64,000 bases of DNA from an uncultured SAR324 cluster bacterium (GTDB taxonomy: Bacteria > SAR324 > NAC60-12), in the NCBI GenBank assembly GCA_905182865.1, contig CAJJCY010000001.1:186001-250000 (forward strand), in the 5' to 3' direction. Position 1 is the first letter of the stretch. Each line of letters begins with the position of its first letter. Shown here in pieces: positions 21,070 through 27,960 of the stretch. A program made the position numbers and the translations under genes. The notes beneath the pieces are model-generated. The model saw only the letters and a list, made by a program, of their open reading frames with translations. It was not told where the DNA came from and made no database searches.

Positions 21070-22182
21070 TCATGTTAACGCAGGTGGGCTGGAGTCCTGT
21101 TCTCCTTTGCGGAAACGCAGCAATTGTTTTCGTAGGTATGAATGACGGTTTGGCGGATAATCAACTTCCCGAGCAGCTTTATGGATAGTTTCAAGGGCTT
21201 TAATTCTGTCTCCAGACTGAAAGTAGGCCTCTGCTAATGTGTCTAAACTGTCAATTGTAGGATTAAGTTCAACTGATTTCAAGGCTAATTCCATACCTTT
21301 CTCAAGATTACGTACCTGCCTGTCTTGAGCAGTTAAATAAAGCCAGGCAAGGTTGTTCAGCACCAAGTCATGTTCCGGACGGTGAGTTGCTATTAATTCG
21401 TAAAGCTCAATGGTTTTGGCTTCGTTGCCTGTCAATGTATAGACGTTTGCCAGCCGGAAACTGACATCAAATGCTTGCGGATGTTTCTGTAAAAAAAGGC
21501 TGTAATGCTGCTTGCTTTTTTCCAGATTATCCATTCTTTCGTAGACCCAGCCCAAGCGTGCGTGTATCCAGGCATTGTCCGGAAGTGCTTCTAAAACGGC
21601 CTCAAAATGACGTGCAGCAAGCTCTCTGTTTCCCAGCATTTCGTGGAAATACCCCCATTGCTCATTTATCCAGGGGGAGAGTTGTTTTGAGGTCATATCC
21701 TGCGGGTCCATTTTAATTTCTTGTGGAGCTTCTTCGAGTAAATAGTGCATATTTTTCAGTACTTGCCGTGTAAAAGGATCTGTGCGAACAGAAGTAATTT
21801 CCTGCCAGATTTCTTCTGTCCTTTTGCTGGCTAATGCACCCAGGACTGGCAGAAGCATCTTGAAGTCATCTCCGATCCAGCGACGCTGCTGTGCTTCTGG
21901 CAGCAAAAGCAAATAAAGATTCCAGGCCCAGAGATTCCCTGGATTTTCATACAAAGCATGAGTAATGTTTTGACGGGCTTCTTCTGTTTTCTTTAGTTTC
22001 CATTGCGTAAAACCCAAATGTGTCAGCAGCAAAGAGTTGTTTGGGCGGATTGTTAATAGTTTTTTGAAAATATTTTCTGCCTCTTTCCAGCGTTTCTGCA
22101 ATTCATACAGCCGCCCCTGAGTTTGAAGTATTCCCGCTGAATCCTGGTACTCTGCAAGATTTTTTTCCAGATATTTTTGGTG
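21070..22182 (-). CDS. C-terminal TPR segment downstream of an in-frame TGA
   Basis: The segment encodes about 370 residues of TPR helices (for example HFEAVLEALPDNAWIHARLGWVYERM). It is in exactly the same frame as the TPR gene ending at 22183, separated from it by a single TGA codon. Between the stop and the first candidate start (TTG at 22101) lie 27 further coding-like codons (HQKYLEKNLAEYQDSAG...), which are TPR-like. This suggests one original gene of about 890 codons. Independent re-initiation at the TTG is the alternative. Confidence 0.65.
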   Translation of the reverse strand, partial: HQKYLEKNLAEYQDSAGILQTQGRLYELQKRWKEAENIFKKLLTIRPNNSLLLTHLGFTQWKLKKTEEARQNITHALYENPGNLWAWNLYLLLLPEAQQRRWIGDDFKMLLPVLGALASKRTEEIWQEITSVRTDPFTRQVLKNMHYLLEEAPQEIKMDPQDMTSKQLSPWINEQWGYFHEMLGNRELAARHFEAVLEALPDNAWIHARLGWVYERMDNLEKSKQHYSLFLQKHPQAFDVSFRLANVYTLTGNEAKTIELYELIATHRPEHDLVLNNLAWLYLTAQDRQVRNLEKGMELALKSVELNPTIDSLDTLAEAYFQSGDRIKALETIHKAAREVDYPPNRHSYLRKQLLRFRKGEQDSSPPALT

Positions 22183-23748
22183 TCAGAAAATGATCTTCTT
22201 CAACTTCAACTGAGATAGTTCTAGCAGAGCCCATTCTGAATTCGGCTTAAGTTTGAGAAAATCATTTAGCGCATTTTCTGCTTCATCTTCGCGTTCTGTG
22301 TTTAATAAAATTCCAATTTGCTGGACGTGTGCCCATTCAAAATCCGGAGAACTTGAGAGTGCTTTTTTAAACCAGTACAAAGCCTTTTCCGGATGTTTCA
22401 AGTTTTTTTCATAAAACCCAAGCTTTGCAAGTGCAGCACTGTTGTCTGGTTTTGCCTCGATAAAACCCAAAATAATTTTTGCTGCCTTTTCAAAAAGTCT
22501 ATGAGATTCATAATAAGCAAGTAGTTTTTCAATTAGCTCTGTTTCTGCAGGGAATTTTTCCAGTCCACGCAAAAGAACCTCTTCACCTTTTTCAAACAAA
22601 AATTCGTTCCAATACAATTGATTCAGACGATTAACTACAACCAGGTTGTCCGGACCTTTTTCCATCAGCCTTTCGTAACGGGTAATTGCTTCCTCATTTT
22701 TTCCCAGCATTTCCAGGGCATGTCCTGTCTGCAGAATGGCCCAGTCGTTTTTAGGATCGGATTTTAGACCCTCCTCAAAAGCCTGAAGTGCAGATTCCCA
22801 TTTTTTTTGAGAGAGATAAACCATACCCAATCGGAAATTAGCCCAGGGATATGGAGATTTTGATTCAAGTGCACGTAGTAAATGTGTCTCCGCCAGCACA
22901 AACTTTTCCTGTGTCCAGGCCAGGTTTCCCATATGTGCGTGTACCCAAATGTCATTCGGAAACAATTTGAGCATGTGTTGAAGAGTCTGGTGCAGGGATT
23001 CCGAGATTTCATCAGAGTATTTCTGACTGGTTAGGTCCAGCTCTTTTTCCTGCAAATCCGCATAACGGCGAAGGTAAAGTTTTGATTCCGGAGAAAGCTC
23101 AACTGCCCGGAACATTGCCAGTCTTGCCTGATGAGTTTCACCACGCCTTTCCCATAATGTTGAAATTCTCAGCCAGAGATCAGGATTCCGTCCATTTATT
23201 TCGCTGGCGGCAATTAAAGCATTAAGTGCCTGCTCTGACTGATCCGGTACATTTGAGGCAGTCCTCCGGTCTAAAATCACACCAATCAGATAAAGAGCTT
23301 CAAACAAATCAGGTTTCAAAGAAAGTGCTTTGCGTGCGTCATTCAAAGCAAGCTGCTGTTTTTCCAGACGCAAGTACAGTTGCGCTCTATCCAGAAAAAG
23401 GAGCGGTTCATCCGGATGTTTAGTGATTTGTTCTGTGTAATATTCTTGTGATTCTCTGTAATAACCCAACCCCTGAAACAGACCTCCCTCCATTCGAATG
23501 AGCGCAATCGAATCAGGAATATGCTGCTGTCCGGTACGGAGTACTGAAAATGTTTTAGTGTATCGTCCCTGAGTTTTCAGATATTGAGCCAGCCGGACGT
23601 AGCCGAGTTCGTGAACAGGATGAATCCGGATAGCATTGCGAAATCGAATTTCCTGTTCATCTGGAGCAGGATTGAAAATTCCCTGACAGCCGGTGACAAA
23701 CCACAAGATCCCAAAAACAATTATTCTCATTAAGAAAAGTTTTTTCAT
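22183..23748 (-). CDS. TPR-repeat lipoprotein-like protein of an ExbB/ExbD-type operon
   Basis: The 521-residue protein starts with a signal sequence MKKLFLMRIIVFGILWFVTGCQG whose TGC fits a lipoprotein cleavage site (VTGC). It then contains many TPRs such as DLFEALYLIGVILDR and PWANFRLGMVYLSQKKWESALQAFEEGL. It ends at TGA 22183-22185, after which the same frame continues as TPR sequence. It lies 11 bp downstream of the ExbD-like gene, forming a three-gene unit. It is probably an outer-membrane or periplasm-facing partner of the energised channel. There is no assigned function. Confidence 0.75.
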   Translation of the reverse strand: MKKLFLMRIIVFGILWFVTGCQGIFNPAPDEQEIRFRNAIRIHPVHELGYVRLAQYLKTQGRYTKTFSVLRTGQQHIPDSIALIRMEGGLFQGLGYYRESQEYYTEQITKHPDEPLLFLDRAQLYLRLEKQQLALNDARKALSLKPDLFEALYLIGVILDRRTASNVPDQSEQALNALIAASEINGRNPDLWLRISTLWERRGETHQARLAMFRAVELSPESKLYLRRYADLQEKELDLTSQKYSDEISESLHQTLQHMLKLFPNDIWVHAHMGNLAWTQEKFVLAETHLLRALESKSPYPWANFRLGMVYLSQKKWESALQAFEEGLKSDPKNDWAILQTGHALEMLGKNEEAITRYERLMEKGPDNLVVVNRLNQLYWNEFLFEKGEEVLLRGLEKFPAETELIEKLLAYYESHRLFEKAAKIILGFIEAKPDNSAALAKLGFYEKNLKHPEKALYWFKKALSSSPDFEWAHVQQIGILLNTEREDEAENALNDFLKLKPNSEWALLELSQLKLKKIIF

Positions 23749-23759
23749 AACATCAAATA

Positions 23760-24284
23760 TCAGCCTTCAGAATTAAGTCCCTGATATGGTATTTCCCATT
23801 TCGGTAGCATTGGTTCCAGTCCAAAATTTAATCCTCCAATTTTTTCAATTGCAACCATCAATAATTCTGAAGTTAACACTCCGTCAGGATAAACCAGTAA
23901 AAGAGGGTAATATTCTGTTTTACCAAACTTTTTTTTAATATCAGTATTTAGCTGAAATAGCTGAACCAGGTATGACAATAGTTCCGGATTTTCACCTTGA
24001 AGCTGGTTCAGCAATTCATCAAGAGAGAGGCTGTATTCCCGGTTCTCAAACAAATTGTAATATTCTATACGATCCGCATAACAGCGGATAAAAATGGGTT
24101 TGACATATCCGGGTGCACCGACCCATTCAAATTGCACACGTTTGGACTCCTTGCGAGAATCTGCACTCTCAGGAACAACAAGTAAAAAGCTAATTGAAAG
24201 GAATGCTAAAATTCCCATTGTACTGAGTAGGACACTCAGAAATGGGAAAAGTGTTATTTTAGGAGAATTAGAAGCATACCTCAT
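23760..24284 (-). CDS. ExbD/TolR-like protein lacking the usual transmembrane aspartate
   Basis: The 174-residue protein has the ExbD layout: a short N-terminus (NSPKITLFPFLSVLL), one transmembrane helix (about residues 14-36) and a periplasmic domain with the TSELLMVAIEKIG stretch that resembles the ExbD C-terminus. Where ExbD/TolR/MotB carry a proton-accepting Asp just inside the helix, this protein has FPFLSVLLSTMG with Ser/Leu. The start overlaps the end of the ExbB-like gene by 4 bp, so the pair is translationally coupled. Either the proton path uses other residues or the complex is not proton-driven. Confidence 0.65.
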   Translation of the reverse strand: MRYASNSPKITLFPFLSVLLSTMGILAFLSISFLLVVPESADSRKESKRVQFEWVGAPGYVKPIFIRCYADRIEYYNLFENREYSLSLDELLNQLQGENPELLSYLVQLFQLNTDIKKKFGKTEYYPLLLVYPDGVLTSELLMVAIEKIGGLNFGLEPMLPKWEIPYQGLNSEG

Positions 24285-25462
24285 TGTTTTAAAGGTTGGG
24301 CGTTTTCGGTTGGCGGTTCATTGTCTTTTTTGTCTTTTTTCTTTAAATTTTCAGTGTTTTCAAGGACATTTACCACTTGATCGGTGTCACTCATTTTGTC
24401 TTTTGCTTCAAATAAGGATTCACTGAATTTTTGAATCAAGGGCTGTAATCCATCAACTTGCGCTGCAAATCCTTTTGAATAACGTTCCACGGATTCAAGA
24501 ACGGGTGAAACCTGTTTGCGCCAATTCTCAGAAAACTCTGCCATCTGTTCCAAATGTTCACTAACTGTATCATCCAGCATCTCATCTCCAGGACGTACAT
24601 GTAAATTCGGCAGTAAATCTTCCAGACAGTAATCTTCAACACTGAGAAGCAAATCTTCTTCTCGTTTTCGCAAAGATGAAGCAAGCATCATGATCGGAAC
24701 TACTCCAACCAATGCAATAAATGTAGTGCTGAATGCAACTGATAATCCACTGGTAACTCCTCCCAAAGCCGAGCGCATTTGCGTGTTCAAATCAGTGCCG
24801 CCGGTGTTACGGATAAAATCTGAAAATTCGCCGACTGACTGTCCGATTCCAAAAACGGTACCGATAAACCCAAGAATGGGAATTGCCCAGATAAAAACGT
24901 TTAAAAGAGCATATCCGCTTTGCATTCTGTTGTGATCAATGTCTGCCTGATAATTGAGAATTGAAGTTATTTCTTCTTTTTTAGGAATGGCTTTGAGGTG
25001 TCTTAATGTGCGGCGTACTCTCCGGAAAATGACGCTGTCCTGAAATTTTTTTACTTTTTGCTCCTGCATAAACTGACTGATTTCCAAAATCCTTTCGTCC
25101 ACATCCCTGACATAAATGCCTTTTGATAAAGAGTCGTGCATGATCTGATTTCTGAAGGCCTCATATGCCAGGAGTTGTTGTCGAAACTGTCGCCACTTGA
25201 AAAAAATCAAAAACAGAGACCAAAGCACAAGGGCAACAATAGTTTCTGAGATATGACCTGAAAATAATTGCAGCCAGTATTCACTCCGTATGACAGGAAT
25301 CGGGAAAACGAGATAGAAAATTCCTGTGAAAAAGAGACTTAAAATAAGTGCTTTAAATGCATCTATTGATTCCATGCCTGGTTGTTCTGACAGGTATGCA
25401 TGGCATTTTTGACAGTAGGCAGCAGTGTCAGAATTGGACCATCCGCATTTTAAACATTTCAT
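24281..25462 (-). CDS. MotA/TolQ/ExbB-family channel protein with N-terminal zinc ribbon
   Basis: The 393-residue protein opens with a rubredoxin-like zinc ribbon (CLKCGWSN...AYCQKC, residues 3-19). Two membrane segments follow (about 36-58 and 68-88), a cytoplasmic helical region, then the MotA/TolQ/ExbB signature: IPILGFIGTVFGIGQSVGEF, AFSTTFIALVGVVPIMML. The C-terminus is a Lys/Glu-rich tail. The first gene of a unit with an ExbD-like and a TPR lipoprotein gene. The family forms pentameric motor stators; the zinc ribbon is an unusual addition. Confidence 0.85.
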   Translation of the reverse strand: MKCLKCGWSNSDTAAYCQKCHAYLSEQPGMESIDAFKALILSLFFTGIFYLVFPIPVIRSEYWLQLFSGHISETIVALVLWSLFLIFFKWRQFRQQLLAYEAFRNQIMHDSLSKGIYVRDVDERILEISQFMQEQKVKKFQDSVIFRRVRRTLRHLKAIPKKEEITSILNYQADIDHNRMQSGYALLNVFIWAIPILGFIGTVFGIGQSVGEFSDFIRNTGGTDLNTQMRSALGGVTSGLSVAFSTTFIALVGVVPIMMLASSLRKREEDLLLSVEDYCLEDLLPNLHVRPGDEMLDDTVSEHLEQMAEFSENWRKQVSPVLESVERYSKGFAAQVDGLQPLIQKFSESLFEAKDKMSDTDQVVNVLENTENLKKKDKKDNEPPTENAQPLKQ

Positions 25463-27251: not shown

Positions 27252-27960
27252 ATGCCTGAGAAGAATAAGCAAGTCAAAATTATGTTGCTTATAGCCTTCT
27301 TCACCATTGTTGTTGCTTTGTTTTTCGTCTTCGATTTACAAAAGTATCTGACTCTCGAATATCTAAAATCCTCCAAAGCATTTTTCATTTCATCCTACGA
27401 GAACAATCCCATTTTGGTGTTGGGCAGTTATTTTCTATTTTACATAGTCATTACTGCATTTTCACTTCCAGGTGCAGTCTGGATGACTTTGGGAGGTGGG
27501 GCTTTTTTCGGATTATTTGCAGGAACAGTGATCGTTTCTTTCGCCAGTTCCATTGGTGCGACTTTAGCCATGTTAATTTCCCGTTTTTTGCTTCGGGACT
27601 GGGTGCAAAGCCGTTTTGAGAAACAGATGCAAATTATTAATGCAGGCATAAACAAAGACGGTGGTTTTTATTTATTCACTTTGAGGCTTGGTGCCGGCGG
27701 TTCCATTTTTTGTAATAAATTTGGGAATAGGCTTGACTCCATTACGTGCAGGCACTTTTTACTGGGTCAGTCAACTTGGAATGCTTCCGGGAACACTAGT
27801 TTATATAAATGCAGGTTCGGAACTTGGAAAAATACATTCCTTGGGTGAGATCCTTTCACCGACCCTGATTGCTTCGTTTGTACTGCTCGGAATATTTCCG
27901 CTGTTGGTAAAAAAAATGTTGGCTTTCATTGAAAAAAGGAGAAACAAAGAAAATGTATAA
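27252..27960 (+). CDS. TVP38/TMEM64 (VTT-domain) membrane protein, frameshifted
   Basis: Frames 27252-27848 and 27688-27960 join into one protein of about 235 residues. The first gives an N-terminal helix, GAVWMTLGGGAFFG and GATLAMLISRFLLRD; the second gives LVPAVPFFVINLGIGLT, GMLPGTLVYINAGSEL and a final helix. This is the conserved VTT order (F..R..P..P......G). The shift occurs at GG 27690-27691, where one extra base is enough to explain it. It is followed by a flavin disulfide-reductase remnant and DUF547, a gene order commonly seen with this family. Confidence 0.75.

Follow-up and report, generated by a model that had tools for sequence, protein, structure and literature searches.

An ExbB-associated locus of SAR324 bacteria with an Asp-less ExbD-like subunit and an Asp-bearing counterpart, candidates for an ion-driven inner-membrane motor

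Introduction

How could an ExbB/ExbD-type motor be energized if its ExbD-like subunit lacks the ion-carrying aspartate? The question is raised by positions 21,070 to 25,462 of a 64,000-nucleotide stretch of DNA from an uncultured SAR324 cluster bacterium (contig CAJJCY010000001.1, positions 186,001 to 250,000; the whole stretch is referred to as the window), where a gene for an ExbB/MotA-type channel subunit is followed by genes for a small ExbD-like protein without Asp, here called D1, and for a tetratricopeptide repeat (TPR) lipoprotein. The answer proposed here is that the Asp resides on a second small protein, D2, and that ExbB, D1, and D2 probably make up a conserved ion-driven inner-membrane motor, most likely with an axle of unlike D1 and D2 subunits.

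Results

Open reading frames (ORFs) were found at the gene positions given in an earlier note on this DNA, all of them on the minus strand, and the genes and features of the locus are as follows.

24281..25462, minus strand: ExbB/MotA-type subunit with an N-terminal zinc ribbon and a C-terminal tail, 393 amino acids (Pfam MotA_ExbB, 48 bits; cutoff, 22.9)
25403..25456, minus strand: zinc ribbon of ExbB, C3/C6 and C17/C20 (Zn_Ribbon_1, 23.1 bits; cutoff, 25)
23760..24284, minus strand: D1, Asp-less ExbD-like subunit, 174 amino acids (detected in 36/52 genomes of the phylum)
24177..24248, minus strand: transmembrane helix of D1, residues 13 to 36, motif FPFLSVLLSTMG (helix 13-36 of the AlphaFold2 [AF2] model)
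24234-24236, minus strand: Ser17 of D1, standing in for Asp (Ser invariant among the aligned rows)
21070..23748, minus strand: TPR-repeat lipoprotein, broken by an in-frame TGA (TPR_14, E value of 1.5e-28)
22183..22185, minus strand: in-frame stop splitting the TPR lipoprotein gene (present in this assembly)

The ExbB and D1 genes overlap by 4 bp, and the TPR lipoprotein starts at 23748, 11 bp past D1. The stator-like pair described in the earlier note was borne out, since ExbB matched the MotA_ExbB family and D1 is an ExbD-like partner truly without Asp.

D1 lacks the Asp throughout SAR324

The helix of D1 follows the pattern FPFLSVLLxxMGxL (FPFLSVL in the window), compared with TPxxDVx in ExbD, and Ser17 occupies the position of the Asp. 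Ser was found at this position in 19/19 SAR324 rows gathered by similarity and was likewise invariant in another set of 29 rows (29/29). It was also present in 35/35 D1 loci of a second locus set, a count that is partly circular because the motif by which the set was chosen admitted just S, T, or A at the Asp position. In a wider set of 14 rows, whose non-SAR324 members were selected by a motif of the same S/T/A type, there were 11 Ser, 2 Ala (L193 and L197), and 1 Thr (L192). The alignment check for an alternative acidic residue, which the earlier note had proposed, revealed no conserved acid elsewhere in the 24-residue helix in the 35 loci; a lone Asp at the far end of the helix was seen in 2 of the 35, both planctomycete.

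D1 had no match to PF02472 at E values up to 1, was absent from the ExbD matches of its own genome, and gave no ExbD match against Pfam and NCBIfam. The MotB plug/OmpA domain was not matched in D1 or D2 either, while the true MotBs of the same genome do match it, and searches of PDB sequences with the D1 and D2 profiles returned nothing relevant. The AF2 model of D1 (predicted local distance difference test [pLDDT] score, 73) consists of the helix and a periplasmic alpha/beta domain. In a second structural comparison, its best match was Escherichia coli TolR 5by4 (Z score, 6.8; root mean square deviation, 4.3; 89 aligned residues); ExbD 8p9r scored 5.1 and 8pek 4.8, and unrelated kinases scored as high as 5.5; in Foldseek on its own, TolR ranked 45th (E value, 0.064). 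The model thus supports, but does not prove, a TolR/ExbD-like periplasmic fold for D1.

ExbB has the residues of a motor channel

Four hydrophobic segments were predicted in ExbB, at residues 40 to 58, 70 to 88, 186 to 204, and 242 to 260. The spacings of P195/T202 and T247/P256 equal those of Pro141/Thr148 and Thr181/Pro190 in E. coli ExbB, in which PMC12215075 names the two Thr as pore residues and the two Pro as kink residues. In the first pore helix, 36/36 ExbB sequences keep the Pro-Thr spacing; in the last helix, the Thr is likewise present in 36/36 and the Pro in 30/36, with all six misses outside SAR324. ExbB was not recovered for 4 of 35 D1 loci (L161, L171, L172, and L178), and a search of PDB sequences with ExbB gave nothing beyond MotA at an E value of 0.65.

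The N-terminal zinc ribbon claimed in the earlier note is present as a CxxC...CxxC pattern, although its Zn_Ribbon_1 score lies slightly below the cutoff. From the sequence, the ribbon is predicted to be cytosolic because an extra N-terminal helix comes before the three ExbB helices. It was found in 19/20 sequences from the organism's own family, the single exception (L156) being cut by a contig end, compared with 0/9 from the sister family; the ribbon is lineage specific and therefore dispensable for the system. The ratios of nonsynonymous to synonymous substitution rates (dN/dS), 0.12 for ExbB and 0.25 for D1 against the nearest relative and 0.06 to 0.11 against two others, indicate that both genes are under purifying selection. 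A Zorya-like defense system was considered and rejected, as the ZorA2 match, which covered the tail and the channel part common to both, scored just 24.9 bits, and D1 and D2 had no match.

D2 carries the Asp

In other genera, D1 is followed by a gene for a small protein, D2, with the helix motif LDSLVDIVSNNVGI. A profile search located D2 of the window genome on another contig (G000:C2:693470-694090, minus strand), with its Asp intact, so that the earlier picture of a module without any Asp is contradicted: D2, beside D1 in other genera and unlinked here, carries it. The Asp was invariant in 13/13 rows, of which 8 were found via a motif containing the Asp and 5 via the profile alone; further counts of 16/16 and 15/15 rest mostly on the motif. 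When the helix profiles of D1 and D2 were compared, they matched with a probability of 94.5% (E value, 8e-8), the Ser of D1 aligning on the Asp of D2, and comparison over the whole length gave a probability of 62% (E value, 7e-5). D2, like D1, had no match to PF02472.

The two subunits go together across the phylum. By profile search, D1 was detected only within one order of two families, and D2 was detected in 39/51 genomes. Among the 41 genomes of the order, 34 had both, 5 had D2 alone, 2 had D1 alone, and none had neither; outside the order, the same searches found D1 in 0/11 genomes and D2 in 0/10. Among 37 loci, the named relatives belonged to SAR324 or its older names except for L178, L189, L190, and L191. 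Of these four, L178 (positions 1 to 260) is a contig labeled Actinomycetota that ends in a SAR324-like D1 fragment with unrelated genes beside it and is probably chimeric or contaminated; as only a fragment at a contig end, it was rejected as a distant D1 carrier and left out of the count.

The pairing of ExbB with D2 in the window genome can be approached by elimination. Of the seven MotA_ExbB matches in this genome, the six other than the window ExbB have either an adjacent Pfam ExbD (three genes) or an adjacent MotB with MotB_plug (three genes). Only for the window ExbB is the partner Asp-less, and among the Asp-bearing partners found, D2 alone has no ExbB next to it. Since the other six are already paired, the window ExbB is the only free partner for D2, an argument that is strong but not final because the genome is 86% complete. 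The third MotA-like ORF (L078 4798-5650, minus strand, G000:C4) is short (151 amino acids) and adjoins a short MotB-like ORF, and this pair is possibly broken. In addition, a fourth, weak ExbD match of 23 residues (21.1 bits, below the cutoff) lies in a 149-codon ORF at G000:C3:781950-782018 (plus strand).

D1-D2 tandems recur outside SAR324

The D1 helix profile matched 45 of 383 genomes, namely 36 of SAR324, 7 others with E values below 1e-15, and 2 with weak matches. The latter (G053 and G181; E values, 2e-4 and 9e-4) had no ExbB or D2 nearby and were dropped as chance. In all seven non-SAR324 genomes with a strong match, a D2-type helix stood beside at least one D1. D1-D2 tandems are found again in planctomycetes, WOR-3, and other lineages; because these loci had themselves contributed to the D1 profile, finding them with it is not independent evidence. 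An ExbB-like gene was adjacent in 7 of the 11 non-SAR324 loci (L189, L190, L191, L193, L194, L195, and L196). Locus L195 (4961-7385, genome G323) encodes an ExbB with a zinc-ribbon-like N terminus and an Asp-less D1, and a complete ExbB-D1-D2 set is present at another locus of this genome (L196).

Gene context and flagellar genes

In a context set of 35 SAR324 loci (L042 to L076), D1 was followed by the TPR lipoprotein in 17, by D2 in 13, by neither in 4, and by a contig end in 1. The trio of ExbB, D1, and TPR lipoprotein that the earlier note had envisaged as a unit is therefore kept locally, the lipoprotein following D1 in the organism's own genus and one other, but gives way to D2 elsewhere. 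The nearest neighbors of the module in the window encode RlmN and a C4 zinc-ribbon protein, and no TolA/TonB, Pal, or receptor gene was found among the window neighbors of ExbB-D1. The absence of an adjacent TonB, Tol, or flagellar partner, which had also been noted earlier, is accordingly true of the window. It is not true of the sister family, in which fliL-fliN-fliO-fliP lie immediately upstream of ExbB-D1 in 9/10 loci, the tenth contig beginning inside ExbB. In L063, FliL, FliN, FliO, FliP, and FliQ were all above the Pfam cutoffs (FliQ was checked in this locus only).

In the organism's own family, a gene for a soluble TPR protein is paired with that for D2, and in 8/13 informative loci these two genes lie divergent from a FliN/FliM-like pair. 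In the window genome, this TPR protein (594 amino acids; L140 8124-9908, minus strand, G000:C2) overlaps D2 by 4 bp, and the FliN-like and FliM-like genes, assigned by Pfam, adjoin D2 divergently (L140 10609-12617, plus strand, G000:C2); the genome has three FliM-family matches. In most of the own-family genera examined, D2 has the soluble TPR protein as its companion. A single four-gene system with a common TPR protein was nevertheless rejected, as the TPR proteins of the window genome and of the sister family are not demonstrably related: the best E value between them was about 0.05, another own-family protein reached 1.6e-4 over 104 amino acids of TPR, the sister-family protein has a membrane helix, and the gene product that follows D2 in L194 has no Pfam TPR match. 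FliM was detected in 51/51 genomes, among them ten D2-less ones outside the order, and PMC9031357 reports flagellar genes in every SAR324 genome that it covered. The link to flagella is genetic and not obligatory, because FliM is also present in all genomes without D1 or D2.

TPR lipoprotein and assembly lesions

The TPR protein has a signal peptide and a lipobox (VTGC), and a Cys follows the signal peptide in 17/17 relatives. The gene had been described as a single long ORF, which does not hold in this assembly: the in-frame TGA divides it into 521 amino acids plus 370 codons, while in relatives it is one uninterrupted ORF of about 890 amino acids. Compared with a relative otherwise 97 to 98% identical, the break lies in a scrambled segment of about 30 nucleotides with two small gaps, and the two halves have dN/dS values of 0.105 and 0.141. 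Because of the scrambled segment and the low dN/dS in both halves, the stop is read as a recent lesion or sequence error and not as old decay. At 27252-27960 of the window (plus strand), a VTT-domain membrane protein is split between two overlapping frames, which again points to small indel errors or lesions in the assembly.

Discussion

In the motor favored here, ExbB, probably as a pentamer, would form the channel of a 5:2-type motor, and the axle would most likely consist of two unlike paralogues, D1 with Ser and D2 with Asp, the latter encoded elsewhere in the organism's own genus. Ion flow via the single Asp of D2 would drive ExbB to move relative to the D1/D2 axle, and the periplasmic domains of this axle would act on a target in the cell envelope. 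The TPR lipoprotein encoded behind D1 is a candidate receiver of the force in this genus; the partners differ in other lineages. Several observations weigh against this arrangement: D2 is unlinked from ExbB-D1 in the organism's own genus; a further unpaired ExbB could be missing from the incomplete genome; no ExbB was seen beside D1-D2 in 4/11 non-SAR324 loci (L192, L197, L198, and L258); the planctomycete-type D1 of L195 has an ExbB beside it and no D2; the D2 model (pLDDT, 78) has no clear PDB match for its periplasmic domain; and the profile of classical SAR324 ExbDs gave nonsignificant E values against D1 and D2 (0.53 and 0.073), the ExbD Asp column falling near the Ser of D1 and on the Asp of D2.

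Of the other explanations, a flagellum-dedicated accessory energizer, that is, an extra ion-driven unit acting at the base of the flagellum or where it crosses the envelope, would account for the fli genes upstream of ExbB-D1 in the sister family and for the FliN/FliM-like pair divergent from TPR-D2 in the organism's own family. It is doubtful, however, as FliM occurs in every genome, including the ten without D2, so that flagella do not need the module; moreover, ExbB-D1 in the organism's own genus is not close to flagellar genes, and the D1-D2 genes of planctomycetes and WOR-3 stand beside genes not recognizable as flagellar. Two complexes might instead share ExbB, with a D1 homodimer as a nonconducting resting, structural, or regulatory state and a D2 homodimer as the motor. 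Such sharing would fit the separate encoding of D1 and D2 in the organism's own genus and the five genomes with D2 in which D1 was undetected, and AglQ and AglS of Myxococcus are, according to PMC9389320, in theory able to form separate channels with AglR; yet the D1-D2 tandem is common elsewhere (13/35 SAR324 loci and 7/7 other genomes) and the D2-only genomes are 51 to 89% complete, and we regard this arrangement as unlikely.

That the locus is a divergent Tol-Pal or Ton energizer is very unlikely: the D1 model matches TolR best and ExbD with a lower Z score, but the genome already has three classical ExbB-ExbD-type pairs with neighbors of their own, none of TonB, TolA, and Pal is at the locus, and D1 is without Asp. 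The in-frame stop and the missing Asp of D1 could also be taken as marks of a decaying, nonfunctional remnant, a reading made extremely improbable by the low dN/dS in all parts, the conservation over two families, the invariant Ser, and the intact TPR frame in relatives. The motor with a D1/D2 axle is retained as the probable one.

Among its closest parallels is AglR-AglQ-AglS, the gliding motor of Myxococcus xanthus, which according to PMC3169522 likewise combines a single subunit of the ExbB/TolQ type with two of the ExbD/TolR type and has TPR proteins among its partners. Unlike D1 and D2, however, AglQ and AglS both match PF02472, and both carry the Asp (PMC9389320), which is here found in D2 only; whether AglQ and AglS form hetero- or homodimers is stated in PMC9389320 to be not known. 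The ExbB-ExbD, TolQ-TolR, and MotA-MotB 5:2 motors share with the present system a channel subunit with pore Thr and Pro residues and a single-helix partner with an N-terminal helix and a periplasmic domain, but in these motors the essential Asp is on both copies of one partner (two essential Asp23 in E. coli ExbD, PMC12215075), whereas the present system has two partner genes, of which one encodes the Asp. TolQ-vWA pairs also have a TolQ-like motor, with partners that are mostly heterologous pairs (PMC12204202); in contrast to D1, each vWA monomer is reported there to carry an Asp, and no vWA match was found in D1 or D2. PMC12505986 describes generic ion transporters, for some of which the function is not known. 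Among titles and abstracts, a scope that excluded most subscription journals, no Asp-less or heterodimeric ExbD was found.

More tentatively, and with rather less than even confidence, the system may represent a class of 5:2 rotary motors that is widespread and whose axle is obligately heterodimeric. One of its two subunits would be permanently without the ion-binding Asp, and the motor would run on a single ion carrier and be asymmetric by design. The present picture of MotAB, ExbBD, and TolQR is that of a symmetric dimer with two Asp residues. If the proposal is true, a motor with one Asp and one Ser would make the need for both Asp residues directly testable, along with the possibilities that such a motor steps differently and that direction or regulation comes from the helix without Asp. 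Both D1 and D2 are invisible to Pfam and NCBIfam, and the pair offers a way to trace, by sequence, motors that are as yet unnamed in SAR324, planctomycetes, and other lineages.

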